Below, in pieces: positions 17,934-53,153 of a stretch of DNA of 64,000 nt. The translations under genes and the position numbers were made by a program. The notes under the pieces were generated by a model. The model did no database searches, was not told where the DNA came from, and saw nothing but the letters and a program-made list of their open reading frames with translations. The stretch is taken from the NCBI GenBank assembly GCA_963693305.1, contig OY855906.1, positions 5,955,501-6,019,500 on the forward strand, read 5' to 3'. Origin of the DNA: Meandrina meandrites. Lineage: Eukaryota > Cnidaria > Anthozoa > Scleractinia > Meandrinidae. How positions within the stretch are numbered: the stretch's first letter is position 1; every line of letters starts with the position of its first letter.

Positions 17934-18390
17934 AATCAATATTTGCGAACAATCCAAAATTCTTGTTTATAAGTTTAAGCTGACTTTCGCTACTTTTGAA
18001 TACTAATTTACTCTAATATAGGTGTTACACACGCTTTAACTCCAACAAAGGATACCCGTGAACGTACCATCTAGTTTTTGTTCTCCATCACAAAACGCTA
18101 GACCGAAAGCGTCGATTGCTCAACAGTTAGTTTCTGGAGCGTAAGGTAAGGGTCAATCACGGAGCTTTTATTATCTCGCTCCTTAATTATTGTCATTGTT
18201 TTTTTGTTTTGTATTTGTTTTCTTAGTGCGTGTTCTTTTTTCTTAGTATATAAATGCGGGAACCAACAATCCACTAAGTATTGTAAAACTAAAAGATTAT
18301 CAAAATATTTTGGTTACATAATCAAACAGTCAAATGTGATGTTCGAACAACAACAGGGGAACTTCTTTCCACAGAGGCTAATGATTTTAC

Positions 18391-20292
18391 GTGTTGATCA
18401 TAGGTGAAGCTCAAATTGCTAACGTCAACTTTAAACTAATATCACTGAATGCTCGGGGAATCCGGGACTTTCAAAAGCGTAAAGCTATTTTCTCGTGGAT
18501 AAAAAAACAAAACGCTGATATCGCCTTCTTGCAGGAGACCTATAGCACCCCTTACCTTTTCATTATCGCGCTTGAAATTCTTAATATTTCAATACGTGAA
18601 AATAAAGAAATTATAGGTATCAAAGTAGGCAATGAAGAGATAAAACTTAATGTTTTCGCAGATGATCTTACCACTTTCGTTAAAAATACGAGATCCTTTT
18701 TTTCTCTAAAACAGGTTATTAATAATTTTGGATATATTTCGGGATTAAAACTAAACGAAGAAAAAACAGAGGTATATTGGCTTGGCAGCTTACACAATTC
18801 CCCTGAAGATCTTGGAATAGACAACGTTAACAAGCCAATGAAAATTTTAGGTATATTTTTTACCTACGACTGGCAAAAATTCCAAGAACTTAATTTTGAA
18901 AAAATTATTACCTCTATAAAAAAATCCTTAAATATATGGCAATGGAGAAACTTAACTTTACTTGGCAGAATTCAGATCATCAAAACCTTCGCTATTCCTA
19001 AGTTTATGTTCCGAGCCTCTCAAATCCCTCTCACAAAAGAAATTATCAAGGAGATAAACTCGGTACTTTTTAAATTTGTATGGAAATCTAGAAAAGACAA
19101 AATAAAGCGAAAAACTCTTATCAGTGATTATAAAAATGGAGGATTAAGAATGCCTCACTTAGAAACGCTTATAAAAACCCAAAGAATCATGTGCATGAAA
19201 AAATATTTCGATAGCTATAATAGCACATGGAAGGTGTTTCTCGATAACTACCTTTCAGAATTCGGAGGTTCGTTTCTATTGAAATGCAATCACGATATAA
19301 AATTCCTCCCCAAGACTCTTCCGAGGTTCTATAAAGAATGTCTTAATGAGTGGGCAAGTTACAAAGAAACGCACATTCATACTCCATCGAACGTGTTAAA
19401 TGAAATTATCTGGAATAATAAGTTCATTTGTATAGGTGCAAAACCGCTGTTTAGAAATAGAATAGCCAAGAAAGGCATAATCAAATTATGTGACCTATTG
19501 GATGACACAGGTAAACTAAAGACCTGGGACGTATTACAGAGCAAAAATATTACGATGGCTGAGTATTTTCTTCTTATGAGTGTTTTTGACACAATCCCAT
19601 TAGAATGGAAAAATATTTTGAAACAACAATTACAAATGGCACAAGGTGATGGCAACAATTCTAATGACATTGTTTTCCCTACTACTTCGAGGGTGCTATA
19701 TTGGGATCTTGTTAAGAAATTCGAGACTAACCCAACATCAAAATACAAATATGAAGAGTTGTTTCCAACAACCGATCTGCCATGGCAAGAAATTTATCTT
19801 ATTCCTAGAAACGTAACTGTAGACACCAAAACTAGAGAATTCCAGTTTAAATATTTACATAGAATTGTTTTTACTAATAAAGCCCTTTTTAAAATGGGCA
19901 TAGTTTCTTCATCTCTATGCACGTTCTGTGGGAAGTTTGAGGAATCCCTCAAGCATTTATTTATTCATTGTGAAATTACCTCCAGCTTCTGGCTTTCAGT
20001 AACGGAATGGCTAAAAATTTATTTTACCAACCTTCAAAATTTAAACGCTTCTAATATAACATTTGGGTTTTTTAGAAAAGATTTCCTTTTACTAAATCAT
20101 ATTGTTATCCTTTCCAAGCAAGTAATCTTTCAATGTCGAAATCTTAATATAAAACCATCCCTTTCATTACTGAAAGCCAGGATGAAAACAACCTACGAAT
20201 TGGAGCTCTCCATAGCTAAACAGAATCAAACGTTAGAGATTCACAACAAAAAATGGAAAGAACTGCTCCCTGTTGTTTCAGGACTAGTTTAA
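18391..20292 (+). pseudogene. LINE ORF2 with large in-frame internal deletion
   Basis: The 633-codon frame begins as an APE-type endonuclease (LISLNARG, then AFLQETYS with the conserved Glu near residue 49). At about residue 54 it jumps directly into the reverse transcriptase, PYLFIIALEILN, followed by the catalytic FADD at about 89-92. Most of the endonuclease and the fingers/early palm of the RT are missing, by comparison with L1/Tx1-like proteins of roughly 1,200 residues, yet the frame is kept for another 540 codons. The C-terminal CTFCGKFEESLKHLFIHC is the CCHC-type zinc knuckle. The first codon here is GTG, so the true start is uncertain. The product should lack both enzyme activities. 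The junction is near 18547-18556. Confidence 0.85.
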
Positions 20293-24464: not shown

Positions 24465-25335
24465 TTCAGACATCAGTTAGGCTGAGTTTGTGATCAACTG
24501 AGTGAAGTTGTAACAGTGGGTTCTGCCATTTCTGGCTCTGCTACAAACAACACTCTCACAACTTGAATTTCATCACTGCACACCAAACCAAGGCCATTTA
24601 TAGCCCTGCATGCTACACTGACCACTTGAGTTTTGATAAAGTTTCGACAACTTTTTGACATCTCTTTTACAATTTTCTGAACTCCAGAACTTCAAGGCAG
24701 AGTTGTCAAGCTCCATCTTTGCTCTCTGACAGCTGTCAGCTCCGCCTCCCGTACGTGTTGCATTTTGATTGGCTAATTGAAACACAAGCCATCAGAAAGT
24801 TGCCAAAAATATGTCAAAAACTTGTCAAAAAAAGCAGAACTACAAGGTTTAGAAAAAGGTGTTAATCAAGAGAGTAACATTTCTAAACAACAGAAAGGGA
24901 CTGACAACATTGATATAAAATATCTTTGGATTTACTTGACTGATGAAAAATTTGTAACAAATTTGACACACAAGCTTGACAGTGCACGGAAAAAGGAAGC
25001 TCTTACTGAACTCCACACATACCTGGCAAGACGACAAAAGATGTCTGTGGGAATCCCTTGGTTGCACGTACTGTAGATCAGTCAAGGAATTAACACTTCT
25101 TATCTCAAAAGATGTCTGTGAGAATCCCTTGCTTGCACATACTGTGAAATCAGTCAACAAATAACACTTCATACAACAACCATGTTACAAAATGCAAAAG
25201 TGCAAAGGCCTCGCTATGTGCTTCAGACATCAGCCAGGCTGAGTTTGTGATCAAATGAGAGAAGTTGTAACAGTGGGTTCTGCCATTGCTGGCTCTGCTA
25301 CAAACAACACTCTCACAACACAATATTTCATCATC
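24465..25335. repeat. pair of about 115-bp direct repeats
   Basis: 24470-24572 and 25218-25335 share CTTCAGACATCAG, CAGGCTGAGTTTGTGATCAA, GTAACAGTGGGTTCTGCCAT and CTGCTACAAACAACACTCTC. A second, shorter duplication of about 71 bp lies between them (25038 and 25109, both AAGATGTCTGTG...AATCCCTTG). This is a local duplication cluster and overlaps the candidate ankyrin-like mini-exons. Confidence 0.75.
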
Positions 25336-33415: not shown

Positions 33416-36400
33416 CTAGTAACGCGGTCTCTTGAAATCTCCATGATCTCTTGCAGGTGGCTCTCGTGAGCGTGCAGCGAGCCGATCTCGATCAACCATG
33501 TCACGATCATGCTCTCTTTGCTTTTCAAACCTTGGCCTCTGAATGATTATTAAGTAAAGTTCAATAATTTTGTTTGTAATGTACAGTTCATGGGATGATC
33601 CGTGAATCCAATGCACAACAGAGAAAATCCAAAAGGAAAGTTATCCATGGTGGAAGGTGGCAGCAAAAACAGAAAGCAAACACATAATTAGAACACATTA
33701 AAGCAACATTATCGTATTACTCTAGGACTATTGCTAATTGAAATGTTGAAGACAGCTTCTTGTATCTTGTAGTATGTATCACTAACAACATGTTATTACT
33801 CACTGGATTTTGACACACATAAGTATATCACATTATTATTATCTTATGTTCTTTGTATAGCATACGAAAAAACATGCCTTTGATATATGAACAAGTATAG
33901 AACACGCGCTGTGTGGCAAAGTTTCTTGCAAACAGTCGAGATGCAAAAGGGTTTTTTTTGCTATGACTCAATATACACAATACATGTGAATAAACAATTC
34001 ATTTTCTTTTTTCATTCTTTGATTCTCAAAGCAAATAACAGAAGAAGTCACAAGGCACTAAAATAATGGATATTCTCTTCACTTGATACTTGTTTGAACA
34101 TAAAATAACTCAGGAAGGTTTCCAAAAACCCAAAGTGCCTGCCTATAAATGGCGTTCGCATTGTACTATTGAACTGAAAGTTATTTTTTTTTGTCTGTTT
34201 CTTGTTGGCCACCTTCTGGCCAGACTTCTGAAAGGTAAACATATTAATATAATGTATCATTACACATTTCTTCATGTAGAAATACTGGCCTGGATATTAC
34301 TATAATGTGGTACTAAGATTGTTTCTTCAATGTGAATCAAAAATACTTAAATGCTCTGCTTTTTTTAATGATTTTGTAGCAAACTGGAGTGGCCTTTTAC
34401 AATAATTATTGCAGCATTTAGCATTCTGAAATGTCACTAGAAATATCAATCATGTTGTGTTGGGCAAAACAATGTGCTCTTTTTTCACTTCTGTCCTCGG
34501 TTCTTAAATCAAGTAAAGAAAATTATAGCTCTTTATCATACAGTTTCTATGCACATCTGGAATCTACTGTGACCAGGTAAAACACTACTTGTTAGAAGTG
34601 CTTAGTTGAAAACTGTTCTATCAACAAGTGACACTCTTTCTCATAATTTACATTGACGAGGAAGACTTAAATTATACCATCTTCTGAGGAAAAAAAAACT
34701 CCACCAGTAGGCTTACTGTGCTTTGCATCTGACATGCCACGAAAAGTAGACATCCATTTTCTTCTCTGTTCAGATAAATATCCACTTGATAGATTGTATT
34801 CCAGGTTTTCCGGGAGGCAATTAACCATTCTAGTTAACTGACCAAAAGATCTCTTAACTTTTAGTGGAAATTAAATAAAAACTTACCCCTCCATTGGGCC
34901 GAATCCCTGGTCCCATGGGTCCACGTGGGCCTCCAGGACGTGGTCCTCCTGGTGGACCTCCTGGCGGGCCTCTAGGAGGCGCCATTCCTGGGCCCATTCT
35001 GGGTGGGTTCATCATGCCTGGTCCACGAGGACCAAATCCTGGTCCACCACGTCCAGGTGGTCCTCCACGTCCTGGTGGTCCTCCACGGCCTGGTGGTCCT
35101 CCACGGCCTGGGGGTCCTCCACGGCCTGGGGGTCCTCCACGTCCTGGAGGTCCCCCACGTCCTGGGGGTCCTCCGCGTCCTGGGGGTCCTCCAGGACCCA
35201 TTCCCCAATCTCCACCAGAAGGTCCCTGTTGGCCAAAAAAATTGTTCTTTCAAGGGGCTGAATCACAGCATATTCATAACACCAAATGAAGACACACTGA
35301 TGAGCAAACAGCGAGCGAACAGAGCTGAGAGTTTCAAAATGACAATTAATCACTAAAGCGCAAAGTTCGCATGTGGAGAAATAACTGGAAGTCTTTATTC
35401 GAGAGAAAAAAGTTAGAATTCTAGTAAAACAATTAGATTATTTGCTCTAGATTTCTATGAGGTGATAGTTGATTTGGCCTTCGGCCTCATAATCTGTCAC
35501 CTCGTAGAAATCTTGAGCTCACATTTCTAATTGTTAATTAGACTAAGAATGCATGTAACTAACCTTTGGAGGCATTCCTGGTGGAATGTTTGAATCCATT
35601 CGCCTTAAAGATTCCTGAAATCAGATTGTATTGGTATAAAAAATCAAGAGTCAATTATTGGATTCCACTAACTAAAGATGAAACCAGACTCAAATCAGTT
35701 AATTCCAAACTAGTTTGCAAAAATGCTAGTAAAGGAAATGTGTGCCACGCAATACATGAGCAAATCAATACTTCAACATGAAGTGGTAACAAGAAATCTT
35801 GTCACACTCAGCAGTTGTCTTTAGCAGGGGTCACAATAAAATTTTAAGTTAGCAGCTGGTTTGAGTAGAGAAACTAACTGTTTGAAAGAATCTTAAATTA
35901 CTTCAATTGAGGGTAAAAGGTAACCGACTTCTCTGAGCGAAGTAGAGCAAAGTAGCCGAGGCTTTTTGCCAGCTGAAAGCACTGATTTAGGTTACCTGGT
36001 GGAGAGAATAACTCAAAGAACCAGGGGAATACCACAAAACCAAAATATAATGCTGACCTGTAAGTACATATCCTCCTGCCGATGCCTCTGAAGCTCGCGC
36101 TGCTGCTGCCTGAAGAGCTCCTCCTTACGACGCAGCTCTTCTTCCCTGCGGTGTAGTTCATCCTGAAGACGCATTTCCTCCTGTCTCCTAATTGAGGGGG
36201 TACAAGGAAAAAATAAACATTACAAAAGTACATCTAAGATGGAAAATAGCTAAAGGAGTTACAGTTTTCAAACATTGGCCTTTGTTTTATTTTCTCTATG
36301 CCTACTTCTGATGAAAAAAAAGCTAAAACATACTGAAATGTCTAATAATTTATATTGTCTTGAATGTAATTCTAGACCGTTTAACCAAAAATAAAACAAG

Positions 36401-39400
36401 CTATAGCGAAAATAACCTTTGCTCCTTACAGACTTTGGACTTTTGTTTTTTTGGAGATTTTCATAAATTAACCATCATAACTGCCTTATGTATATAACAA
36501 GGAACTACGCCCTCCAATTCACAAAAGGACAGCCAAATCTCTTTGCTTTACCTCAACTCTTGCTGTCTCATCATCTCTTCTTTTTGACGTATCTCTTCAA
36601 ATCGGCGCAGTTCATCTTGACGACGTTGAATTTCTACACACAACAAACCACTTTGTTAGCACTAGAGAGAATGCTGTCAGGGGTAAGTTGTTCCATTTTA
36701 AAGTTTGCATCTTTCAGAAGCCAAAACCTACACATAAGTTTCTGCAGAAACTTCATACGGTAATTCCAATAAAAGATTCATCACCAAGATGCAGCTGTTT
36801 TTACCCTTTAAGCCCCAATATCCACATATACAAATTCTCCTGACTGATCTTCATACATTTTCTTACAGTATTAGGAGAATTTGTTTAAGTGCCCCTGTGA
36901 TCAAATTTTGATTTTGATTTTTTTAATTTTCATGTACTATGAGACCTCTTTACACATCTTGTGAAATTTCAATCCAATATGATCATCAGAAGTCATTTTA
37001 TTTTAACATTAAATTATATTTGAAGATCTTTGCTTATAAACATTCAAAATAAGAAAAAAAGTCAATCCATCCTTTCCCTTTGCTGTAAAAGATTCCTTCA
37101 AATTGGAAAGACCATGTTTGAAATCACTCAAAAATGTATTGCAAACCCTTGAGCATTGAGTACGTCACATATGCCTACAGATTCTGTCTTTTCGAAATGC
37201 ATGGCTGAACGCCATGTTGATTCTCTTCAGGCTTTCCTTGTGTTAGCTAGAGGCCATATAATGTGTTTCCTTTTTGGAATGTTTATATATTGTCCTTTTT
37301 TGGAATAAAATAAACACTTTTAAACTAATCCTAAGAAAACCTTGTCTCATCAGCACAGCCTCGTGTTCCTGTATAGCCTGCTCCATTTCTGCTTCTAATT
37401 TCTCTCGAGCTTCCTTGAACTGCTTGTCCAGAGCTTCCTTCTGAGATGCTTCCATTTCTTCCAATGCACGCCACCTTTGTGCCCATTCTGACTCAAATGT
37501 GTTGGGTGCCACAAAGTGAGGTTGGGCTTCTCTCTCTCTGAAGTGAAGATTTTAACACAATCAACACCTCATTTCTACTTATAGTACAAAAAAGGTTAAA
37601 AGATGCGAGCATTTATTCATATTTGAGTTTGCATCTCTCAGGAGCCAAATTGTACTCAAAAGCTTCTTCAGAAACTTCATACGGTAATTCCAAAAAAGCA
37701 GTATCATCACTGAAATGCAGTACTCTTCAGACCAGTTATTACAATACCAATGGCATTTCAAAGAGTGCTATGCTTAGTTCTACTTGTATGTCATCAGTAT
37801 GGCTCATGATCAGTGCTGAGCCCTGTTTAAGGTCATTCCCCATTATTGCATTGTGCATCCCTTCTGCACATAACTTCACACATGATTAGTTTGGGTGCAT
37901 TAGAAAAATGGCAGCTTTTTCTTTACGACTAGACCTCGCCAGAGGTAAATTGTCATTTTCTCAAAAACAAGTACAGAGACCTATCATTTTTTCTGTTGTT
38001 TTAAATTTAGCAATGAATTTCTCAGTGTCGAATAACAGTCGTTGAAAATGTGAATTTATTCAGCAATGGTGACTATAATCATGGTGATATTATAAGGATT
38101 TATTGGGTATAGACAAGGGGACCCCTCATTTTTATTTCAAAATTTAAGTTATTAGAATGTAAACAATAAATAGGCAAAGTTTGGCAAAAAAACTCAGTGC
38201 AGGTTCTATTTCAGTGGAATGACCTTAATTAGAAACATATTCAAGTTTTGTAACACTCTTACTTCTGAAAGACAGGGTTCCTCTTGATATGTTCATCAGT
38301 GATGCCATCCTCATCTTCAGTATGTTCTAACTGTTTAACAGACACAGGACGTGGTGTCCTGAAAAGTCAATAAAAACAAAGCATGATGGATCATGGCTGC
38401 ATTGTTTGTTAATCCAGGATTAGGGTGAATTTTGATTTAAGTTTTTTTTACTTTTCATTAAGGCTTTCTGTGTATATTTTTCCCCCTAGTTTTGATGTCA
38501 ACTAATCTCAAACTCCACAAAACACAGGTGATAAAAACACTTTTATTTACACGAGAAAGTGAACCCTTCATGAACTTTAAATCCTGGGTTAGGGATAATC
38601 AGCTATCAAAAAACCCAGATCACAGTTTAAAAAAATCAATAATCATAACTTTGACTCTCAGATGCCAAATTTATACACAGGTTTTTTTGAAACCTCATAC
38701 GGTAATTCCAATCTAGAAACATTTCATCACTGAGTCAAGATCACAAACAGTAATCATATTGAACTGAATACTATAGAAGTGGTAATTATAATTTACACAC
38801 TTATATTTTGCTCCAAGCTAATGTTCTTGCAATCAGATACAAATAGAATTGGAGTTACCTTCCAAGGAGAAATAATCCATCACTGATTTGTTGCAGTGCT
38901 TGTTGAGCAGAGCTTTTTCTTGCAAACTCGATGATGCCATGTCCCTTTGTTCTTCCTCTATCGTCACAAACAACAACGGCTCGCTCCACATCACCAAACT
39001 GTGAAAATGCTTGATGCAACAGGTCATTTGTGACTACTGGTCCAAGATTAAGTACTTTAAGGGCAGCCGCATGTAAAGCAAACCGTACTCGCACAGTTCT
39101 TCCATTGCGAAATATACCATCAACAGCATGCTTGGCAGTTTCTGCATTCAGACGTGTGTCCTAGCAACAAAAAATAAGAGCACCTAACAGTTAACTATAG
39201 AGTGTCCACCTCTCTAATCAGTACGAGGCTTGTATTTGTGCCTGGTACCAGCACCTTTTTTAGGTACCGGTACATTACCAAGCTCATTCTATTGGTAATG
39301 AGTTTAAAACATCTTCAAGACCCATTTCTTTGTTATCAGACTCTGTAGGGTAAGAAAGAGATGCGTACAGTACCGCCTGAAATCATATGCACCCTTGGGA

Positions 39401-42035
39401 CGTTAACTGTAAGGGCAGAATGCGTGTGTTGCATGAAGGAGGAATGAGACGAAACCGCACAGTTCACAAACAAAATCCACGCAGTTCAGTTAAGAAAACC
39501 TAGGTTGAAAATTTTCCTGGGTCAAATGGACAAAACACTATCACAATAGCCTTTTGTTTAGTTATTGTTTTTCTGTTGAATAGATATATTTTTCTCACAT
39601 TTAATGAGCTAACACGCCCATGACCACTGCATTCAAATTACTTTCATTTCATTTGCTTTTACCATACCTGACCGACATGTTCGTAATGCTGACTGAAATG
39701 CTGTTTGGTTTTAAGCTATTAACTACAACAGTAAATAGCTGCTGGTATCAAGTTAGAAAAGTTAACAAATGAATTTATTCCGAGCTTATATATAGGAACT
39801 GTAGCTACAGTTGCGCGCGGGACTAGCGAACTGAGGTAGCGCGCGCGACTTCAACAATTTGCACGCGCTCTACATGGCGCAATTACATTTTCCGTTAATT
39901 AAGTTTTTTGTGCTTCGTCGTTATTGTCAATTTAAACAGATTTTTTAGGGTTTGTAGTTTAAGAGTATTGTTACCCTTTGTTTAATGTTTCTTAAGACCA
40001 TTTGTTTAAGTTATTTAAAGGTCTACATTTACGCATTTAAAAAGCTCGCGCTAATATAATTTCCAGAAAGTTCGTCAATGTCGCGAAAGCATACGCGAAA
40101 GCGCCGCGGCATCCAACAAGCTATATAAGTTTTTAGTTTTTTGCCTTTGAGTTCAGTTGACGTTAGATACAAGCCACAAGAAGTCAAGTACGGCAACTCA
40201 ATCCTTCTTTAGTGATTTTAGGCAGCACCAAGGTAAATATTTTTGACGCTACTTTAGTTTATTCACTTTATCGCTTTATTTGTTTCTGTCTTAGTTTCAG
40301 TTTTATCGTTTATATTTGTAATTTAAGACTTAAGATTTAAAATAAGAAGAAAGTTGTACCCGACATCGTTAACCGTTATTTGTAAATCTTTACTTTTTTA
40401 TTTCCTTCTTGTAAACTGTACACTTTCTTAAATGCATTTATATTCCGTAGTTTTCACGATGTTATTTGTAATTTTACATATGTTTTTATTTTAGTTCTCA
40501 CGTTATTTATTAAACAAGCAATAAATATCAGTTACGTGAACGGTTTCCTAAATCACTGGAGTAATAGGAACCTCTCCTGAAACTATGCTTGCCATTTGAA
40601 ACAATTCGAAAAACGACCAGGGCTTGATTAACTTGTAACGGCAAATGGTGAATTAGCTCCATTGGTCTTTGTAATCATATATTCACGATGGCGTCTGTAG
40701 TATAGCTTTTCAATCATTATTCGTGAATTTTTTTTCAATCATAATTCGTGAATTTTTTTTCGAAATTTTTTCCCCTTTAAGTTTAACAGACAATACCCAA
40801 TATAGTTTCATGTACGGACATACTCCACAAATGAGCAGCGCGTGTACACATACATTACATAACAAATTGAAAAACGAACATTCCAGTATGTACGCAAAAA
40901 TGTTTTTGCTGCTTGTAATGCCATTTTCGGCTAAACTTTGAATTAGATAAATATAGTTCTGTAAAAATTTTCTAGCTTCCCCAGGTCTCCAGAGAAGGCA
41001 GTTTATCATAGCCTAGCATCAACATAAATAAAAGGACAATTATGCAAATTGAAAAATTGGCCACATGTCAATTTTTCACTGCCAGTCGATGAGACAAGGG
41101 GACACTTAGCCGGCGGGGCCTTGGGACGAGAAATGAAGGGCTCTAGAGACAAAGGATTTTCAGTCCTAGATTCTGGGACTTCCTGTATTCATGTATGCAG
41201 TCGTGATGTTTCTATAAACTGTATGGGAGAGTTGTGGCATATTTTACTTCGGCCCAAGATCTCCAATTAAAAAATTGAATTGATTCAAAAATCCTATGTC
41301 CACGGAGCCTTCTGTTTCTCGTGCCAAGGGCCTGCCGGCAAAGAGAAGCAACAAGGGCTATGGGGACAAGAATGTTTGCTGGCTTGAATTCTGTTGCCAC
41401 AAACCCCAGAGCCCTTTATTTCTTGTGCCAATGCCCCAGCCAGCTAAGAGAAGTGAAAAAGAGGTGTGAGGACGAGAATGGGAGCCTGAGGCGAATCACC
41501 ATTTACAGCCTGTTGCCGAAATTATATGTGGGTTTTTTTCTGTCTTCTAAGTGATTTAATATTCTGTAGTATCACTACTTACCATTCTGACAAAGCCAAA
41601 TCCTTTCTCCTTGTTTACAAACACCTCAGCGACCTCACCATACTTTTCAAACATCTCCCGCAGTTCGGTCTCTTCACAGCTTAGCAAGTTACCAACGAAA
41701 AGTCTGCATCGACCGGAAAACTTCCGTTCCTTCGGTTTGGGTTCCTTGGATTTGTACGAAGAGTTCCATGCTCCTGCATTGCCGCCTTTAGAGACCGGTG
41801 ATTCAGACGGCTTCCGATAAGATTTTTCTGCTGCAGGTTTGCTGTCTTTAGTAGCTGTGGTGTTCGATTTGGGCGACTCCGACACGCTGGTCTTTTTCGC
41901 GTTGTTTTCCGAGTTCTTCTCCTCGGTTTTTATCGTAATTAGCTCGCGAGAGTTCGGTTTCCCTGTCTTGTCTTTAGAATAAGGTGAACTAGAGGTCCGC
42001 CTAGGCGACCTTGAGCGTGAACGAGTCGCCGGCAT
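33416..42035 (-). CDS. NONO: DBHS family RNA/DNA-binding protein (NONO/SFPQ/nonA type)
   Basis: Nine coding exons: 42035-41583, 39160-38859, 38358-38263, 37537-37341, 36633-36552, 36187-36058, 35614-35564, 35225-34887 and 33538-33416. All have GT-AG introns and phases that join to 590 residues. Order of parts: RS-dipeptide N-terminus (RSRSRSPRR); RRM1 from about 111 ([14 protein letters not shown]); RRM2 from about 185 ([16 protein letters not shown]); the NOPS segment ([28 protein letters not shown]); a long Arg/Glu/Gln coiled coil; a GGPPGR repeat block in exon 8; and a charged tail. This RRM-RRM-NOPS-coiled-coil order defines the DBHS proteins, nuclear factors in splicing, RNA retention, transcription and DNA repair that dimerise through NOPS and coiled coil. 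The vertebrate paralogues split later, so NONO is a family label. Introns 2, 3 and 4 each carry a C/D snoRNA. Confidence 0.93.
34990..35195 (-). repeat. coding minisatellite GGPPGR in DBHS exon 8
   Basis: About nine near-identical 18-bp units (CCTGGTGGTCCTCCACG-like on plus) encode [13 protein letters not shown]. The repeat opens long spurious frames in other phases. RG/G-P-rich tails are typical low-complexity regions of DBHS and other RNA-binding proteins and may vary in length between alleles. Confidence 0.9.
35420..35545. repeat. fold-back element in DBHS intron 7
   Basis: Arms of about 60 bp flank a GGCCTTCGGCC-type centre: ATTTCTATGAGGTGATAG pairs with CTGTCACCTCGTAGAAAT, and AACAATTAGA pairs with TCTAATTGTT. 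It lies wholly inside the intron between exons 7 and 8. Confidence 0.75.
36706..36793 (-). ncRNA. C/D box snoRNA (copy A), 18S guide, DBHS intron 4
   Basis: Read on the minus strand. Terminal stem GCATCTT/AAGATGC, plus one further T-A pair; box C GTGATGA (36784-36778); box D CTGA (36717-36714). Guide TGGAATTACCG (36768-36758) is followed by T and a D'-like ATGA. It is complementary to CGGUAAUUCCA of 18S rRNA, and the fifth position before D' pairs with the U after CGG. The internal hairpin AAGTTTC/GAAACTT is perfect. The RNA ends 72 nt before the exon 5 acceptor, near the spacing usual for intron-processed snoRNAs, in sense orientation to the host. Confidence 0.9.
37630..37719 (-). ncRNA. C/D box snoRNA (copy B), 18S guide, DBHS intron 3
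   Basis: Terminal stem GCATTTC/GAGATGC with one G-U pair and an extra T-A; box C GTGATGA (37710-37704); box D CTGA (37641-37638). Guide TGGAATTACCG (37692-37682), then T and a D'-like ATGA, exactly as in copy A. The internal hairpin AAGTTTC/GAAGCTT keeps pairing through G-U. The 3' half (GAGTACAA, TTGGCTC) is nearly identical to copy D in UTP14. It ends 92 nt before the exon 4 acceptor. Confidence 0.9.
38651..38738 (-). ncRNA. C/D box snoRNA (copy C), 18S guide, DBHS intron 2
   Basis: Terminal stem TTGACTC/GAGTCAA, a different sequence from the other copies yet perfectly paired; box C GTGATGA (38730-38724); box D CTGA (38661-38658). The guide TGGAATTACCG (38710-38700), spacer T and D'-like ATGA are conserved. 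The internal hairpin is AGGTTT/AAACCT, a compensatory change relative to copy A. The most diverged copy, 292 nt upstream of the exon 3 acceptor. Confidence 0.88.
39800..40563 (+). mobile_element. LTR-like insertion with its own promoter in DBHS intron 1
   Basis: The 764-bp segment is flanked by an 8-bp direct repeat, ATAGGAAC (39792-39799 and 40564-40571). It begins TGTAGC, holds a TATA box (40122-40128) with a TTCAGTT initiator about 32 bp downstream, a possible donor CACCAAG/GTAAAT near 40230, and AATAAA at 40520 close to its right end. That order (promoter, transcribed part, poly(A) signal near the end) is LTR-like. However, the right end does not read CA and 8 bp is long for an LTR duplication, so the class is uncertain. 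It is antisense to the host gene. Confidence 0.45.
40122..40158 (+). promoter_or_regulatory. TATA box plus initiator inside the LTR-like insertion
   Basis: TATATAA at 40122-40128 and TTCAGTT at 40152-40158 are spaced as in a focused core promoter, with predicted start at A40155. Transcription would run antisense to the DBHS gene. Confidence 0.5.
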
Positions 42036-42180
42036 GCTTTAAAATTCGGCGAAAAACGGAGCCACAAACTGCACAACAGCTGTCCGCCGCTACCAAGATG
42101 GCGTCGACTCGAGAATAGGCCACGTGGTAGAAGTATCCCAGTCTCCTTTGCGTGGTCACGAGGGTGAGGTTTGCTGAAAA
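42036..42180. promoter_or_regulatory. bidirectional promoter of DBHS and UTP14 genes
   Basis: Only 145 bp separate the two start codons (42035 minus, 42181 plus), so both 5' UTRs and the shared promoter fit in this gap. It contains CAAGATGGCG (42094-42103), a YY1-type motif usual near starts of housekeeping genes, and a CACGTG E-box (42121-42126). No TATA box is seen. Both genes act in nuclear RNA biology, which makes co-regulation plausible. Confidence 0.75.
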
Positions 42181-45100
42181 ATGGCCGTGAATATAGCCTT
42201 GAAGTGAGTAATACAAAATAGGGGTGCTTTTTATGCTCTAAGTAACTTTTTTAGTAACGACGGTAAGTAGAAAACACTTTCCTTTCTTTATTTTTGATTT
42301 CCAAACAGGATTGCGCCCGTGCTGGAAAGGAAAGAAAGCGACGAACTTCTGGATCACGGAACAGACGATCTGAGCGCCAGCGACGAAGAGGTTTGCATTT
42401 CAATATTGTCTGAATTAGTAATTAACAGATTTGTTGTGGTGTTGATCTTTTAACTTACTTCTAGAACTGGTTGATTCCTGATGTTACCCTTTTAATTGCG
42501 TATTTGTGGGTTGTTTAAGCTCGGTTTTCCACACCATTAACTCCCAGATATTGCGCTCCTACTTGTCGAACAAACGTGCAATTATGGTATTTTGTAGACT
42601 TTGTCCACGTGCGCTAAACCTGGTATTTTTTGTTCACGTTCCGTTTGAGTAGAGACGGAAATGTTTGTTATTGCTATAGCATTAAACTATAACTTGCACA
42701 TGTGGAAATGAAAAACTAAACACAGGATGTACAGTAATTTGATACAGGGCTCTGAGACAGCTTTGACGAGATTTCTGACATTTCTTTCCGCTCCCACTTT
42801 CCTCTGATGGACAACCTGGGGGATTGTAAAAAAGTAAAGCAATCTTTATGAATTTTCACTTTACACAGAAAGATAGCGGAGATGAAGAAAAGCATGAGAA
42901 GCTCCTCAAGGCAATCAAGTCATTATCATCCAGTGGAAAACAAAAGTATGCCTGCTTCATAGTTTTAATATATCAGATACACTGCTAGCTATTCACAGAC
43001 TAGGTTTCATTAATAGGACCAGGCACCCAGGGAATGTGAGCGGCTGTGGACATGGCTTTGCCTGGCTGTTTTCAAAATCTGAACCCACTTCAGAGTAGAG
43101 AGTAGGGCCTTGCTATTCAGGCTATTCTCAACTATTTGCGTGGTTGAACTTTGCTCTTTAGCACTTTGATGGCAAATATTGATTGTGTGGTTCCAAAAAA
43201 TATCCATACTCCCCTCACAGAAGGATTTTTAGTGTTAAACCCCACCCCCTCAGAATTTCTGTTCCAGGGAGGTCACACACACACACACCCCTTTGGAATT
43301 TCCATTATTTTTTAACATGGCCGCTCTACCCCCTGGAAAATTCAAATCATTTTGTTATTTACAACCACTAAAATTGTGGGTAAGACTTCAATGCTCAATT
43401 ACGTTTCATTAAGTGAGTTACATTCGAGGAAGAAGACTTCTAAAGACTTGACTTTGGATTTCTTTCAGAAAACTTTTTTCCCTACATTTGAGTTCCTAAT
43501 ATCAGGGTGCAATTTATCTGGCGGTGCAGATTATCTGCATGTGTGGCTTATCTGCAGGTGTTAACAGTATTTCCCAGAATTTACGGCTGCCATTAGAAAA
43601 TTGCACAAAGAACAAATCTAAAGTTTTTGTTGCTTTTGGCGTGATTGTCAATACTTATTGTTATTGTAATTTCAACCCTAGGTATTTTTGAGCCCTTGGC
43701 ATCACTTCCTGCCATTCGCAACCAAGCATTTGAACAACACTGATTAACAGTGGCTGTAAATTCTCAGAAATAAATGTTAAAATAAAATGACTTCTGATGT
43801 TCTTAATGAATTAAAATTTGGCAAGGTGAATAAGCAAGTCTAACAGTACACGAACATGTTTAAAAAAATGAACATAACAAAAAAATTGATCACAGGGGCA
43901 CTAGTTTCCATGGCATGAATGAAGTGGCCAAGTATGTCATGGGATGCAAGATCATCCCAGGTTACTCCCCTAGCTTCTTTGCGAGGTTGCAGTAATAAGG
44001 CACTGGTTACCATTGGATTATTTTGTACTCCTGGGTATAAAAGAGAGTAGAGAGTAGGACTGTGAGTTTGCTTTCTTTGCTTATCCTGCTTGAAAGCTGA
44101 CACTACAGGGGAAAGGTTGGTTTGGATCACTTCTGAAAATTGCAAGGTTAATCCAAACCACATGTTAGCCTAAAAAATATTCAAATGTTTGTTCAAGATC
44201 ATAATTAGATTTTTCCTTTCAGTCACACAAAATTAATCTTGCTAACATAATAAACCTGTTTCTCAACAGACACAGGGCATCACAGCAGCGATCAGAACCA
44301 AACAAGACAGTGTCCGAGTTTCATTTAAGCACTGTTAAAGGTATTGTCAAAAACACCAACCAGATTATAAAAGTTAATCTAATAATCTGATCTCTGGAGA
44401 TGATTCCTTCAAGTTCTCCCTTTCCTTACTCCAGTATCGTTGGACAAAAACAAAAGCTCTCACTAGCCTTGGAAAGAACATTTCTTAAGTAGCAAGGTGA
44501 ACTGTGTATCCTTCTAAATGCTTTTCCTTCCCTTTTTTGCTCAGATGTGCTCAGACATTATTCACAATACCAGGGCTCGAAATTAAAAAAATTCTTAAGT
44601 CGCCACTTGGCGACTAAGTGCTAAAAACTAGTCGCCAAATGCAAATTTTTAGTTGCCAGATTGTAAAATCAATAGGGACTAGTTCAAAAGTGCTTAAAAT
44701 CATTTGTAGGAATTGAATCTAAAAAGGACTGAATACATAAACATTCGAAAAGAAAAACAAAGCAATCTTATCACAAGGTTTAAAACAAAAACATTTTATA
44801 AGATTTTATGGCCACTAACTTTGTAGCTGACGTAAAGAACTGGAAGGAACCTCGAAGGAATCAACATGGCGGAAAGCACTGCATTACAAGAGACACAATC
44901 CATATGCATACATAACGTACTCTTTGAAAAGGGTTTGCAGAGCATTGTAGGGCAACTTCAAACGTGCAAGTTTTCGGATGCGAGAGAATCTTTTTTGGGC
45001 AAAGCAAAAGGATGGATTGGAGCAGTACGACTTCTTTTCTTATTTTGAATGTTTTAGAAGCAAAAATCTTCCAATATAATTCTCTGGAAGGACATAATGT

Positions 45101-48100
45101 CCGAGAAAATGGCCATTATTCATCGTCAACACAGAGAAATGTAGTCGCCATTTTGGCAACTAACCCAGAAATTTAGTCGCCAAGGACGAAATGTTGGTCG
45201 CATTGGCGACCGTATTGGTCGCAATTTCGAGCCCTGAATACCAGTAATTAATTTTGTGGTTTGCCCTTTTTTTAGTCATCTTCAGTCATATCAGTGTAGA
45301 TGTTGCAGTTAATTTTTTACTTCATGAAAATTTTATTCTTCCTTTGTTTTTTAGTATGGTGAAATGTATGGTAACGAGTTTGAAACAAAGGAAGAATAAA
45401 ATTTTACCTGAAGAAAAAAGTAACTGCAATATAGTACATTGTTATCCAACAACAATGTGAATCAAGCATAATCATATCATGGAATACTTTAGAAAGTGGT
45501 ATTTACAAAACATTGTATTTGGTGATAAGTATGTTCATGACATAGATTTGGTTTCCACTTTCATACAGATAGCAAACAACAAGTTGACTTGAGTGATCTC
45601 ATTGGATCTTTAAACAACAGCAGTGAATATGGTAATCTCAAGAAAAAATTGGTAAGAACATAAGAAAAAAGTGATCGTAGTCCCAAGTAAAGAAAGCTTT
45701 TTTCTTATTTTACGATAAATGCAAAAGGAAGTTTATCAGGTGACATGAGCAACAGTCCCTTTGCAGGAAGTTTCATACCAAGTGACCAGTTGCAGAGCCA
45801 GATTCTTCCAGTGATTCGACATTGCTTTTTTATTTGTCTGGGAAGTCTATGTTTAACGAATGCCAATCATGATGAATAATTACAAGTTGCACAGAGGTTG
45901 CATGAAAACAGGATTGTGAAACTGTTATCAGTGTGAGTTGTATTGACCAACATCAGTATGGTACCAGAATTTGAATCTTTTTTCATTCTTTTGTCTGTAA
46001 AATAAAGACCCTTTATATGCAGTATGCTACTAGAATTCTCCCTGCTGTTGTTGTTATTATTGCAATGGTTAATTAGTGTGTTCATTTCATCTTATTTCAG
46101 GACAGTATGCAGAGAAATTCTGGCACCCTTGATGTTCCTTTACCAAAACCACAAGCGCAAAAAGTAAGTAAAATTCCCAACTCACTTATCGCTGATCTTG
46201 GTGAACTCTGAAGTGAAAGCAGAAGGATCAAATTTTCCTGAACAAGGGATATGATTACCAACACAAAAATGGATGCTGCAACTTGAGACATTTTGTGTTG
46301 TAAATGTTTTCCTTTTTTATAAGGAAATGCTAATTTATAACATTTAATCCCAAAAGGGCCATAATCTGCATTTACTTGAAATGCCTTTGCAATATTTGTA
46401 TATAGCTAAATAGAATTTAGGCCAAGCTAGAATTGTGGGAATTATTAATAAACCAAAAAAATCCTTTGTGTGCTCCCAAGTACACCCCAAGAATTCACAC
46501 AACCAGCTGTTACTGCCCTGGTAATATTTTATCTTTCTTTTTCCAGATTCAACGTACTATTGCATATGGAGAAACCAAAAAGGACATTGAAAAATGGACA
46601 CCAACTGTGAAAAAGAACAGGGAGGTAACAAAGTTGACTTGCTTTCAAATTCTTGTCTATCCTTTGTGGGAATTCTCAACGGGTATTGATGTAAATGTAA
46701 TTTTGTTCTGCCAATTTGGTCTCAATCTTAAGTTAGGCAGTGATTGTAAATGTGTGCTTTGATTTGTTTCTAGGCTGAACATTTGTCGTTTCCACTCAAA
46801 CCCTATGAACCACCTGTACCAACACTGAGGGGAATATCTGTAAATTTCAAGGTAATAATGCCGTTGCGTGCGGCTTTCCCCATTTCACTGACTAGCTCAA
46901 GTCGACAGACTGCCCTTTCATTGTAACCAAGGTCGTTTAGCAATAAACACTCAGTATATTAAAGATTGTCTTATAATTACAGGAAAATACCTAGAATCTG
47001 CCATTCTCAGCTGATAAGTGTTAAAAAAAAAATAAAATAAAAAAGTTATTGTTGTGAAAGATGAAATATTCAGCATGTTGCGAGTGTGGAAATCGGATAC
47101 AAAGCAGACATAAATTCTGCAAAACTTTGGGTTGTTGAGTGTTGTCAAGATGTGTACAGTCATGTATACATCAAGTCATGAGGTTTCTGGATGTTGCAGT
47201 TTTGTTGGGTGTGGCATAAGGGCAGCCACCCCTTTTTACTGAGGGTTGCTCCCCTTATGCCTCATGTGACAACATCATGCTCCCATCAACAACAGGTTGT
47301 CATACACTAGTTATATCTTGAAGATGATCTTTTTCAACAATGACACGAGCATGGGACAAAGAAAAATTCTGAGTCGCTGACGGGAATCGAACCCATGGCC
47401 TCCCAGATACCGGTTGGGCGCTCTAACCAACTGAGGTACAAGAGACTGGTTGTGAGCTTGGCCATTTACTAGGTTGATATGTGACACACGTCCTGCATAC
47501 TGCTACATTGCTGATCCTAGCAGTATGCAGGACGCGTGTCACATATCAACCTAGTAAATGGCCAAGCTCACAACCAGTCTCTTGTACCTCAGTTGGTTAG
47601 AGCGCCCAACCGGTATCTGGGAGGCCATGGGTTCGATTCCCGTCAGGGACTCAGAATTTTTCTTTGTCCCATGCTCGTGTCATTGTTGAAAAAGATCATC
47701 TTCATTATTTATCACCAAGCTTAAAATTTACCATCTTTATTATTTACTACAAACTTGATGATTTCGACATTGCTGATCCTAGCAGTATGCAGGACGCGTG
47801 TCACATATCAACCTAGTAAATGGCCAAGCTCACAACCAGTCTCTTGTACCTCAGTTGGTTAGAGCGCCCAACCGGTATCTGGGAGGCCATGGGTTCGATT
47901 CCCGTCAGGGACTCAGAATTTTTCTTTGTCCCATGCTCGTGTCATTGTTGAAAAAGATCATCTTCATTATTTATCACCGAGCTTAAAATTTACCATCTTT
48001 ATTATTTACTAGTTATATCTTAGTATCTAGTAATTTATTGTCCTTAGTTTCTCTACTTTTCAATGACAAATTTAGAAAAGGTTCATTGTTTTGATTTTTT

Positions 48101-51100
48101 TTTTTATTTGATTAAAAAAAGGTTCAAATATGAATAAGGGAAATTGTTTTGAACTGTTTGAGATAGTGAACAGTTTGGAGTAACTGAGTTTGTGAGGGTT
48201 AGTTTAACAGTAAATGAAATAAGACTTAATCCGACGGAAATGGTTTCTTGTTTAAGATAGCAAGGAGTTTTGAGATAAGGGAGTTCTAGATAGCTCAGCA
48301 TCATGTGTTTGTTATAATTAGTCAGATGTGTTTACTTGGCAGCCTTGTAGCTGGGGTCTTCGTTCCCTTTGTCAGGAAACAAGTGACCCTGGAAAGATTC
48401 AATTTAAAGTCTGAAAATATTAGACTTCCTGTAGAATTGCACATGCTTAGGTTTCAAAAAAATACTTGACAAACTCCTTGGTGTTTTACTTCTGGCCATT
48501 TCTATTGTTTTTAAAACCAATCAAATGCGATTCTACAGCGTTAGTTTCAAGAGTCGCTTGTTTTGTCAAGCTTGTGCAGTAAGGAAGGAAGACTAGAGGT
48601 ATGAGATTGTTTATTGGGTGTTAAATGTGTAATTTAATGAATGGTGAATGAAATGATTTGTCTTTTGCTACATTCTATCATGTGTTACTGTTCAGCCCCG
48701 TACTCCTTTGGAGGAAGAGGTTGCTGCAGTTTTGAGAGGGAGTGCTCATGTTCTTGAGCGGAGTAACAAGGAGCTCACAGAAGAGGAAGAGAAGGCGTTA
48801 CTGGCCATGGACTTGGAGGAGGTATCAAAATACTACTTCTTATTGGCCAAGTAGGAGGGCGATATTGGGTGAACATCATCCAAGGCCTTTCTGCATCTGA
48901 TATTTACCAATAGAAGCAAGGTCTTTACAGGAAAAATGAAGGGTGATATTCTCCCAGTAGCTTGTGTGATATAATAAAAGGTTTATTATATGGCTGTCTT
49001 TGCTGCACTGCCTGCCTGCAATTTTCCAGCAAAACAAGCCTTTTACATCACTTGTAGCATTACAGGACAATCCAGCCATGTCTATCAGCCTGTTAGAACA
49101 TGCGTTGTATCTTAACAAGCTCTGTAATAAAATGATTACAAATAAATTACTTGCTTTCTTCAGAAAGATCTGATCTCATTGAGAAAAAAAGGCTGAATTG
49201 ATTTTACCAGAATAATGATTCAAAGGTTTCTTCCTATCACCCTTACATTTCTTTCATTCTTCAGGCAAAGGAGAGGAGACATGAACTTCAGAAGCTGCGA
49301 GCATTGCAGTCTTATTACGAAACAAAATGTCGCAGGATGAAGAAAATCAAAAGCAAAAAGTATGTTACCAAGTAAACTTCCAGGTGTGTGATGGAAGTCG
49401 CAGGAGTCATCACAATGTAACATTTATAGACAAGTTTTTAATTTCTCCCATGTACAGTACTACCAAATTCTCACAATAAACATGAAAAGAAATGTATAAC
49501 AGTCAGTAAGGAGAGAATAATTCAATCTAGGACTGGGTTAGGGGGGGGGGGGGGGGGTGCTGTCTGTGATGTACTCTGGATTAAGCTCTCAGGCTCCGGG
49601 GGTCACTGTGGTGTGTATGTTTACTCTCACAGTGCTTCTCGCAACCCAGGTGTATAAATGAGTACTGGTGAATTTACTGCTGGGGGTAACCCTGTGATGG
49701 ACTAACATCCCATCCAGGGGGAGTAGAAATACTCCTTGTCGCTTCATGCTACGGAAACTGGTGTAAACTTCAGCAGTGTGCTCTGTGGTCCAAGTGTGTA
49801 TTTAGCTTTTTAGTTTGGGATTGTGTTAGCACGTAAACAGTACAGTATGGTATTGTTGCATCTCGATGATGAATATGTCATTGTTTTGGAATTACCGTAT
49901 GAAGTTTCTGAAGAAGCTTTTGAGTACAACTTGGCTCCTGAGAGATGCAACGACATTAAAGAAAACAGCAATCCCAAGAATACTGTCTAAATATACCATC
50001 AAGTTATAAAACCCAACATTAAGGTGGCTCAAAACAGTGTTCACCAATCAATGGGCATTTGTCTGATACCATGATTGTAGCATCAACTGACAGAGACTTG
50101 TAGTATTAATCCGTCGAGGTTGAGTTGCTGAAAAATGCAGGAAACTGTTTTGAGCCACCTTAAAAGATATGCTTAGCAATCAATAATTAGAAAACATTTA
50201 GAGGTGATGAATGAAATGGTTAATCTATAGTGTGATGTTTATACTAGGTATCATCGGGTTAAAAGAAAAGCCGAGAAGCGTGCAGCTGGAAAGGTGGCAG
50301 GAGAAGAGCAGAATGAAAATACAGAGGAGACTTCAGAAAAAGCTGAAAGATTGCGAGCCATGGTGAGAATTTACCTTTCATTTCCCACATTTATTGGTCA
50401 TAAAGTTCTCCTAAAACTCACAGGTAGTTAGAAAGAAAAAATTTAACACCTTTGTGGAAAAGTTGATAAAGTGCCACATTCTCCTATGGATAATTGCAGC
50501 AAATGTTTGAAAATAAGTTAGGAGAATTCAATCTAGTTTTCTCTAAAGTTTCCTCCTAAATTTACTACCAGCCAATCATTTGTTGTATATTTTCCAACCA
50601 AGATCTCCAGCTGATGAGGTTTAAAACTGGAAAATATTAATTTTGTGATGTTGTCTGTACCTTGCCTTTAGGAACGTGTGTCTTTGAAGCATCGGAACAC
50701 CTCCAAATGGGCAAAACACTTGATTGTTAAAGCAGGCAAGAATGCAGACGTAAGTTATTTCAGTGTGTTCCACAACAAGTTCTTCTAATTCTTTGCTCAC
50801 AAACCTGACATTTTCACCTGCTTTTGCTGAAATGTTAGTGAATGTACCATGTTCAACATATTGTTCTTGGATGAAAGTGTCTTAAGCAATGTTTTGTTAT
50901 CACATCTTTAGGCCAAGAAATTACTACAGGAACAACTACGTATCAGCCGAACCTTGACAGAGAAAACTGTGGAGTTGGAGAGTGATGAGGAGATGGAGAC
51001 ACCTGCACAAGATGGACCTTTAGAAGATGATGAAGACACAGACACATATGGCAATCTCTTAACCTCCGAGGACAATCCTTGGAAGTTAGACACAAGTGGG

Positions 51101-53153
51101 ACACTTCATCAAGAAACTTCATCAAGCTTAGACAATGGTAATTTTTTAAGTTAACCACTCACATGTAACTAAAAAGTAGTGCAAAGTGAACCGAGTGTGA
51201 GGTAGTGAAAATAGTTTTGTGCACTAGGGGAAGACTTCTTTCAAACTGCATTCATATGAAATAATATCATAAATAATCTCAATACGTGAATTTTATGATG
51301 TGTAACCTTACTACAGATATAACAGAATCTAAACAGTGTTCTTGAATGTGATTGGTCCTCTATAATGAAACAAATTAAGGAATACGAGAATGAACGTTTC
51401 TGCTTGGCTTTGTGCTTCCTTACTCATTCCCTGGCTGCAAACCTAACCTGTTATTGTGATTATGGAGAAAGTGCATTTGTGATGTTTATCTCTTTTAGAT
51501 GCTTCAACCAAGCTCCATAGACTTCAGCCAATCAGGACAGAGGAGGCGAGAGAGAATAGTGATGAAGATTTGGAACACAGTGATGCTGGGGGAGGGGACA
51601 GGGAGGAGGAGGAGGAGTTTGAGTTACAACCAGTCATTCACACAGAGAAAACAACAGAAAAGCTTAAGAAACAAAAAGAAAATGAAAGCAAAAAGAAGAA
51701 AAAACGAAAATCTGAAGCTGAAGTAGAAGTGACTGCTAAGAAAAGTAAAAAATCTGAGAAACCAAATAAGACAGAATCTAAAAGGACTGTTAAGGAAAGC
51801 AAAAAAGCAAGCAAGAAAAGGCTTAATTCTAAATTGAAAGACAAGAGGGAAAGTCAAAATGTAACCAAGGAGACTTTGGAGGAGGAAACAGAAAACTCTA
51901 ACTGGACAAATTCCAATGTTGACATCAGTGAAAACAGCAAAAAGAAAATAATTAGTCACAATGAACATAATGGTACAGCTGTTTCACAAGACATTCATGT
52001 TGACCCGAAGAAAATTTTTAGAATTGAAGATAATGGAATTGAAGTTGGCGAAAGTGATTTGCTTCAACAGAAACGAATTGACATTCGGAAAGCATTCGCC
52101 AATGATGATGTGGTGGAAGACTTTGTGAAGGAGAAAAGTGAGATAGAAGATGCGTCCAAACCCAAGGATATTGATCTGAGTCTTCCAGGCTGGGGGTCCT
52201 GGGCAGGAGCAGGAATTAAGCCGTCGGAGAAAAAGAAGAAACTTTTCACCAAGAAAGCGGACCCTGCCCTGCCCCGGAAAGATAAAGATTTGTCGCATGT
52301 GATTATCAATGAGGAGAAGAGCAAGTTGTTTAGTAAGAATCAGGTAAGGAATGGTGTTTATGAAACAGCAGTGTAGCAGCTCTTGTAAGCTTGTAATTCT
52401 ACTGGTCCTCTAGTGTAGCAGTTGCTATTGTTTTGGGGGCTAGGGGCATTATTCCTGTTGTTTGTTCTATTCTCGTGATGGGTAATGAGCCATTCTTGTG
52501 AGAGCTACTACCCGACCACCCAAAAAACACATACATGTACATGTATGCATTGCGGTCCTGTTTTTATGAAAACGTTCTATACCAAGTGTTCAAATGCCAT
52601 TTTCTCTTCTCAAGATTTGATCAATGAATTTTGTGTAATAGGAAAGAGGAGGCCCAAACTGATCTTAGGGCTTACTCTGGCTACACTTGTGCCAGCTTTA
52701 CTTCCATTGCGGAGCAATGTACGAAGGAACCGCTAACAGTTAAGATAAAGGAATTCTGTTATGTCTTCTACACCAGTGAAAATTTAGGAGATTATAGCAG
52801 TTTCTACCGATTTCCTTTGAAAAGGTGGTCTCATTTGTTCTAAATAGGTTCTTAAGTCGATCACTGTTGTGGACTAAATAGTTTTTCCCCATCTATTTTT
52901 TCTGCAGGTTCCCTCCACGCCGCACCCATACGGCAGTCACGTGCAATTTGAACGGAGCATGCGCAATCCTGTGGGAAAACACTGGAACACGGGCACAACT
53001 GTCAATCAATTGACAAAACCACGTGTCGAGACTCTGATTGGTACGATTATAGAACCCATCAAAGCGACCAAAGAAATCAAGCGGAGCAAACCGGAAGACC
53101 GGAAAAACAAGAAGAAGGGAAGAGAGTCCTCGGGAATTACAATTCATAGTTGA
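42181..53153 (+). CDS. UTP14: UTP14, U3 snoRNP / small-subunit processome protein
   Basis: Fifteen exons: 42181-42203, 42309-42390, 42869-42945, 44270-44340, 45569-45651, 46101-46163, 46547-46624, 46774-46851, 48696-48821, 49265-49359, 50248-50362, 50672-50749, 50912-51137, 51499-52343 and 52908-53153. Phases join to 761 residues, close to the usual UTP14 length of about 770. Family hallmarks: HEKLLKAIKSL early; KWTPTVKKNRE and LSFPLKPYEPP; PRTPLEEEV; LRALQSYYE with KKIKSKKYHRVKRK across exons 10/11; RVSLKHRNTSKWAKH; an acidic and lysine-rich middle in exon 14; LPGWGSWAG; and a C-terminus with VQFERSMRNPVGKHWN. UTP14 works in the nucleolus in 18S rRNA processing and stimulates the helicase Dhr1/DHX37 (family knowledge). 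Intron 10 hosts a C/D snoRNA that should also act on 18S rRNA. Confidence 0.95.
43184..43240 (+). repeat. one end of the TGTGTGGTTCC MITE family
   Basis: TGTGTGGTTCC, AATATCCATACTCCCC and CACAGAAGG match the left end of the complete copy at 58605. The other terminus is absent, so it is a truncated copy in UTP14 intron 3. Confidence 0.65.
44571..45236. mobile_element. nonautonomous hAT-like element in UTP14 intron 4
   Basis: Perfect 14-bp inverted ends CAGGGCTCGAAATT, flanked by the 5-bp duplication AATAC (44566-44570 and 45237-45241). Many GTCGCCA/TGGCGAC subterminal motifs occur on both sides. CAGGG ends point to hAT; a 5-bp rather than 8-bp duplication would fit a hAT5-type group. It contains no transposase. 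Confidence 0.75.
47320..48028. mobile_element. three tRNA-derived SINE units, one inverted, in UTP14 intron 8
   Basis: Arms 47320-47504 and 47519-47703 form a nearly perfect 185-bp inverted repeat with a 14-bp spacer. The plus unit is then repeated in tandem with a 262-bp period (47505-47766 and 47767-48028). Each unit has a tRNA-like head (TACCTCAGTTGGTTAGAGCG as A box, GGTTCGATTCC as B box). The anticodon arm pairs poorly and position 33 is C, so these are not functional tRNAs. Confidence 0.85.
49520..49790. repeat. interspersed repeat with poly-G tract, UTP14 intron 10
   Basis: A G run at 49541-49557 is followed by sequence including CCCTGTGATGGACTAACATC and GGAGTAGAAATACTCC, wording I recall as a common dispersed repeat in invertebrate and fish genomes. 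Boundaries uncertain. Confidence 0.4.
49855..49951 (+). ncRNA. C/D box snoRNA (copy D), 18S guide, UTP14 intron 10
   Basis: Perfect 10-bp terminal stem GTTGCATCTC/GAGATGCAAC (49855-49864 with 49942-49951); box C ATGATGA (49866-49872); box D CTGA (49938-49941). The guide TGGAATTACCG (49887-49897), spacer T and D'-like ATGA (49899-49902) are identical to the three copies in the DBHS gene, and the internal hairpin AAGTTTC/GAAGCTT is conserved. Sense to UTP14. It ends 296 nt before the exon 11 acceptor, but a 145-bp MITE lies in that gap. Confidence 0.92.
50019..50163. mobile_element. TTAA-flanked MITE, 145 bp, UTP14 intron 10
   Basis: Perfect 20-bp inverted ends TTAAGGTGGCTCAAAACAGT including the TTAA target. 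No coding capacity. A different family from the 26327 element, but the same TTAA target. It sits between snoRNA copy D and exon 11. Confidence 0.85.

Follow-up and report, generated by a model that had tools for sequence, protein, structure and literature searches.

Box C/D small nucleolar RNAs (snoRNAs) have been assigned to equivalent sites of 18S ribosomal RNA (rRNA) in Dictyostelium (Um571, CD21), yeast (Um578, snR77), human (Um627, HBII-135) and Arabidopsis (Um580, AtsnoR77Y) (PMC8817022). Both HBII-135 (RF00571) and snR77 (RF01181) are included in Rfam clan CL00057 (PMC3511168), and the same 18S site is guided from the D′ side of the snoRNA by chicken GGgCD16 (PMC2653536) and, reportedly, likewise by Neurospora CD24. 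Here we describe four intronic RNA copies, A to D, in a 64,000-nt stretch (the window) of contig OY855906.1 from the coral Meandrina meandrites. With a probability of about 0.93, they represent a box C/D snoRNA family of the snR77/HBII-135/snoR77Y type that would guide 18S methylation from introns of a DBHS gene and of UTP14. HBII-135 is presumably the older name of SNORD65. The features that carry this reading are direct observations: the anatomy of the copies, their covarying stems, a match in Rfam, the identities of the hosts and a sense position within introns of hand-spliced gene models.

Four copies with one guide

All four copies were found where an earlier note on this DNA had located them, three on the minus strand (A, 36706-36793; B, 37630-37719; C, 38651-38738) and one on the plus strand (D, 49855-49951), each with the box C, box D and closing stem that had been claimed. 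They are 88-97 nt long (n=4). Box C is an exact RUGAUGA in every copy (GUGAUGA in A, B and C; AUGAUGA in D), box D is an exact CUGA in 4/4, and the closing stem comprises 7-10 bp, with at least seven contiguous pairs and a single unpaired base beside box C in each case. By script the stems contain 8 pairs in A, 8 in B, 7 in C and 12 in D; a manual count gave 10 bp for D, the remaining script pairs falling in the flanking intron. Between the boxes the order is constant. The guide UGGAAUUACCG is followed by a U, a D′-like AUGA and a possible short hairpin in 4/4 copies, in agreement with the earlier statement that all carry the same guide, U and AUGA. The guide lies at 36758-36768 in A (minus strand; TGGAATTACCG, then T and the D′-like ATGA), at 37682-37692 in B (minus), at 38700-38710 in C (minus) and at 49887-49897 in D (plus), and the exact 11-nt sequence occurs four times in the window, once per copy and nowhere else.

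To place these numbers against chance, the window was scanned for an exact RTGATGA followed by an exact CTGA starting 42-108 nt past the start of box C, enclosed by a contiguous closing stem of at least 6 pairs in which G-U was permitted and at most two bases in all were unpaired. The scan returned six matches, four of which are copies A-D; on 100 dinucleotide shuffles it returned a mean of 0.14 and a maximum of 2. The exact guide appeared in the same number of dinucleotide shuffles with a mean of 0.01 and a maximum of 1, and never within a scan match. The two other matches in the window, on the minus strand at 24466-24576 and 25223-25334, are alike by eye, and each combines a box C and a box D with a stem of 7 bp that leaves two bases unpaired; they probably reflect chance within a repeat, and we make no snoRNA claim for them. 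Searching the window with a covariance model of the four copies gave only A-D up to an E-value of 10, and these match by construction.

A further short element, UUGGC, is kept in all four copies within 10 nt before box D, for example at 49931-49935 in copy D, and may provide extra pairing with 18S rRNA. We considered and rejected a further long guide ahead of box D, since the two bases adjoining box D vary despite the presence of UUGGC in 4/4.

Relation to snoR77Y and the predicted 18S target

The earlier note had proposed a covariance-model search as a check on its family assignment. Against Rfam 15, snoR77Y (RF01178, clan CL00057) matched all four copies, at 39.3 bits for D, 38.9 for C, 35.4 for B and 32.8 for A, with E-values of 1.7e-4 to 7.8e-3 when 18 kb was searched and of 6.2e-4 to 0.028 in a search of the full window. 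No RF00571 match was listed, only the best match being kept per clan. Among other snoRNA families, the sole match in the window at E ≤3 was a weak one to snoZ112 (E 2.2), which lies on copy A. The four scores are below the gathering cut-off of the family, and for this reason we do not file the copies in RF01178 and regard them only as working like snoR77Y; at the level of the clan they are probably homologous to it.

The guide is antisense to CGGUAAUUCCA, its predicted target in 18S rRNA. In box C/D snoRNAs the base to be modified pairs with the fifth guide base upstream of D′, and in UGGAAUUACCG the fifth base before AUGA is an A that pairs with the U after CGG of the target. The feature that defines the CL00057 group, a guide against this element with D′+5 on that U, was thus found in 4/4 copies. 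Ten of the 11 target letters are contained in the primer CCAGCASCYGCGGTAATTCC, which appears in 170 papers alongside 18S and which we take to be the universal eukaryotic 18S primer; the eleventh letter of CGGUAAUUCCA is presumed. A search for 18S in viral contigs by two patterns gave 0 matches for each. The guide, the spacing of AUGA, the snoR77Y match and the published equivalence of sites all agree with the earlier assignment of the target to the yeast Um578 (snR77)/human Um627 (SNORD65) position. Therein, the snoRNA class and the target site stood up, and methylation by these RNAs is a prediction from guide, boxes and family.

Covariation and divergence of the copies

The earlier note had also stated that a conserved guide is combined with covarying stems. 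Its closing stems are correct for all four copies (GCATCTT/AAGATGC in A, GCATTTC/GAGATGC in B and TTGACTC/GAGTCAA in C), that of B including one U-G pair. Its internal hairpins agree with A and C; in B and D the hairpin is AAGTTTC/GAAGCTT with one U-G. In a MAFFT alignment of the four copies we examined 15 pairs of two helices, giving 59 pair cells. Standard pairs fill 96.6% of these cells, compared with 26.9-54.2% when the 3′ partners were slid by 1-3 columns. Changes on both sides were seen in 6/15 pairs, five in the closing stem (of 8 pairs) and one in the internal hairpin, a number reached in 0/500 shuffles; the number of further pair types says less, having been reached in 26/500. Five of the six double changes set C apart from A, B and D and one sets A apart from the rest, so the covariation reflects few independent events. 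With that qualification, an identical guide and covarying stems were both confirmed.

Folding energies are modest by comparison with shuffled sequences, with z-scores of -2.54 for A, -1.69 for B, -1.38 for C and -3.36 for D, and with 3, 12, 22 and 0 of 200 shuffles, respectively, folding equally well. In A and B the minimum-energy fold lacks the internal hairpin. The interior of a C/D RNA is held by protein, and folding energy therefore adds little for these copies.

Whole snoRNAs are 71-87% identical between copies, C being the most divergent, and the parts before the guide (stem arm, box C and spacer) are 62-70% identical. The guide is the same in all four and is contained in the longest stretch that is identical in 4/4. 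When 250-nt flanks were compared (12 comparisons), local scores never rose above the best of 200 single-base shuffles. The similarity thus ends at the snoRNA, and within 250 nt there is no sign of a segmental duplication or of a retroposed piece of a host. These observations bear on two other explanations of the family. Intronic snoRNAs that alter host splicing are described (PMC10324135), and the copies might accordingly serve chiefly to regulate splicing of DBHS and UTP14 rather than to modify rRNA; with an 18S guide inside the best-conserved stretch and dissimilar flanking introns, we consider this very improbable. It is scarcely credible that the copies are a transposon or repeat with an accidental likeness to a snoRNA. 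The window does contain transposon-like open reading frames (ORFs) and repeats resembling short interspersed elements (SINEs), but similarity stops at the snoRNA ends, the stems covary, Rfam recognises the family, and the target site is modified in yeast, human, Arabidopsis and Dictyostelium (PMC8817022). As a control, the 16-mer TGGAATTACCGTATGA was located in viral contigs (11 stretches, 7 contexts), where 0/11 had a box C within 35 nt upstream or a CTGA 25-70 nt downstream, compared with both in 4/4 window copies; this control is weak because the boxes rarely arise by chance.

The snoRNA family itself shows one uneven relationship. Copies B and D share 62/65 positions from the guide to the 3′ end and 23/33 before the guide. 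For the other five pairs the counts are 47/63 to 54/63 in the guide-to-end part and 20/32 to 19/27 in the part preceding it. B and D may have undergone local gene conversion, a reasonable but weakly supported explanation. Retroposition of D from B was rejected, as ahead of the guide these two copies (23/33) resemble each other no more than A and B do (19/27), and neither a poly(A) tail nor a target duplication was seen by eye.

Host genes and position in the introns

Both host genes were spliced by hand from the sequence, and every modelled intron is GT-AG; introns are numbered by coding exons. On these models the copies lie one per intron and all in the sense orientation, C, B and A in DBHS introns 2, 3 and 4 and D in UTP14 intron 10 (49360-50247). 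The earlier claim of intronic copies spread over two divergent hosts was thus borne out, and the hosts could be identified. The first, on the minus strand at 34887-42035, encodes a DBHS protein (PSPC1/NONO/SFPQ type) and has its ATG at 42035; the model is partial at the 3′ end and consists of 550 stop-free codons in eight exons (42035-41583, 39160-38859, 38358-38263, 37537-37341, 36633-36552, 36187-36058, 35614-35564 and 35225-34887), with a weak donor at 37340 (GTTTTC). Above the Pfam cut-off, two exon ORFs gave RRM_1 and one gave NOPS, and the second-exon ORF matches Protein Data Bank chains of SFPQ, PSPC1 and NONO. Among the best 120 of 474 matches, Pocillopora verrucosa PSPC1 shows 79% identity over 93% with residues 1-437, and the further best named relatives are from Montipora capricornis (72%) and Acropora palmata (72%), so that these matches would by themselves point to a stony coral as the probable source of the window. 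Towards its C terminus the protein contains GGPPGR repeats, encoded by an 18-nt tandem repeat at 35023-35220.

The second host, UTP14, lies on the plus strand at 42181-53153 with its ATG at 42181, and its 15 coding exons encode 761 amino acids plus a stop. Pfam Utp14 was above cut-off on two of the five exon ORFs tried, below cut-off on two and without a match on one. Residues 13-736 match human UTP14A (7mq8_SS) with an E-value of 2.5e-102. Only 145 nt (42036-42180) separate the divergent start codons, which makes the hosts truly head to head, and this interval is likely to act as a shared bidirectional promoter. It would be a larger step to suppose that such a promoter drives two nuclear RNA-protein genes carrying the same 18S guide, with the arms homogenised by gene conversion and the dose of guide and processing factor co-regulated, and we regard that extended model as doubtful.

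Within the same interval a CACGTG is present at 42121-42126. A CACGTG E-box has been reported at many animal ribosome-biogenesis genes, those of Nematostella included (PMC2570694); by eye, the flanks of the coral motif differ from the Drosophila ribosome-biogenesis (RiBi) consensus MAACACGTGYG given there.

Similar pieces in inverted orientation occur at 36926-37223 in DBHS intron 4 and at 43768-43857 and 44858-45054 in UTP14 introns 3 and 4; these are perhaps copies of a mobile repeat. UTP14 intron 8 holds a SINE-like palindrome at 47312-47973, with tRNA-like repeats of which three are above the Rfam tRNA cut-off, a direct repeat at 262-nt spacing and 194-nt inverted arms that are 97% complementary. 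Farther away, the ORFs at 18385-20292 and 1214-2479 look by eye like a reverse transcriptase fragment of the long interspersed element (LINE) type and a DDE transposase, respectively.

The classical optimum for an intronic snoRNA is 40-50 nt before the branch point (PMC10234308). Downstream of copy A two sequences resemble a branch point. CTAAC, the closer of them to the splice site, begins 46 nt past the snoRNA and has its A about 49 nt past it, and copy A would thus fit the classical position. Distances to the 3′ splice site are 72 nt for A, 92 nt for B, 292 nt for C (which lies 120 nt from the 5′ splice site) and 296 nt for D.

Discussion

Several observations weigh against a functional family of the snR77 type. 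None of the copies reaches the RF01178 gathering threshold of 52 bits (0/4), the C′ boxes are degenerate by eye, and D′ reads AUGA rather than CUGA. For a putative Arabidopsis RNA named snR77 no rRNA target could be predicted (PMC7464842), although it may be another RNA than AtsnoR77Y. Finally, C and D are some 290 nt away from the respective 3′ splice site, far off the classical optimum. This last point raises the question of whether only the well-placed A and B yield mature snoRNA, C and D being poorly processed or silent relics, and for some C/D snoRNAs the branch-point distance does matter (PMC10234308). We consider such a division unlikely, if less so than the other alternatives. Copies C and D keep their boxes, guide and stems, the stem of C still pairs after its sequence has changed and that of D is the longest of the four, and expressed human intronic snoRNAs mostly lie farther from the branch point than the optimum, with the terminal stem often compensating (PMC10234308).

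We prefer a family of four guides, for which the following course may be proposed. Each copy would be transcribed within its host intron and freed by splicing and exonuclease trimming, with the proteins of the small nucleolar ribonucleoprotein protecting it on the box C/D motif and its closing stem. The element upstream of D′ would then pair with CGGUAAUUCCA of 18S rRNA, and fibrillarin would 2′-O-methylate the U after CGG. For the four copies, expression as stable small RNAs, binding by the proteins 15.5K, NOP56, NOP58 and fibrillarin, and guided methylation of 18S are all predicted here from sequence. Ordinary local and trans duplication would have given rise to three copies in successive DBHS introns and to the fourth in the divergent UTP14, this route too being our interpretation.

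Such a family would place in a coral, together with its named host genes, a probable guide for an ancient site of 18S methylation. Its four members are natural variants that differ in stems and spacers and agree in guide and boxes, and they provide compact data on what selection keeps. In addition, UTP14 is a factor of the small-subunit processome and acts on the same 18S precursor, and the head-to-head pair would be a small example in which a guide resides with the pathway it serves.

Comparison with known systems

The closest likeness is to Arabidopsis snoR77Y (RF01178), which has the guide UGGAAUUACCG before D′, boxes C and D, and a UGGCU element before box D; the Rfam consensus has CUGGCU near the place of the coral UUGGC. 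The region between D′ and box D differs, and the coral copies sit in introns of animal DBHS and UTP14 genes. HBII-135/SNORD65 and chicken GGgCD16 share the 18S site with the coral family, and the chicken gene is also intronic with its guide at D′, but is described as a single copy in intron 4 of mRNA CR391615 (PMC2653536), as opposed to four copies in the coral. Yeast snR77 (RF01181) is directed to the same site, Um578 (PMC8817022), but resides in the SNR72-SNR78 gene cluster (PMC6171561), whereas the coral has one copy per host intron. In a thin search of the open-licence literature we found neither a description of this particular pair of hosts nor any snR77-type snoRNA reported from a DBHS or UTP14 gene of a cnidarian.

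The earlier note had regarded three copies in one gene and one in its neighbour as an unusual arrangement, a view that does not hold. In human, among C/D families with at least two expressed members, 59.5% have them in a single host gene (PMC8178906), and chicken has both intragenic and intergenic copies, with one family, GGgCD61, made by both (PMC2653536); measured against these, the coral arrangement is ordinary. Ongoing mobility of snoRNAs between introns has likewise been argued for eukaryotes at large (PMC3511168). This kind of snoRNA family is well known, and our understanding of snoRNAs is unchanged by it. SNORD58 in RPL17 and SNORD12 are likewise paralogues of one C/D snoRNA within one host (PMC8178906), and the coral family differs from them in that one copy sits in a neighbouring, divergently oriented gene on the other strand.

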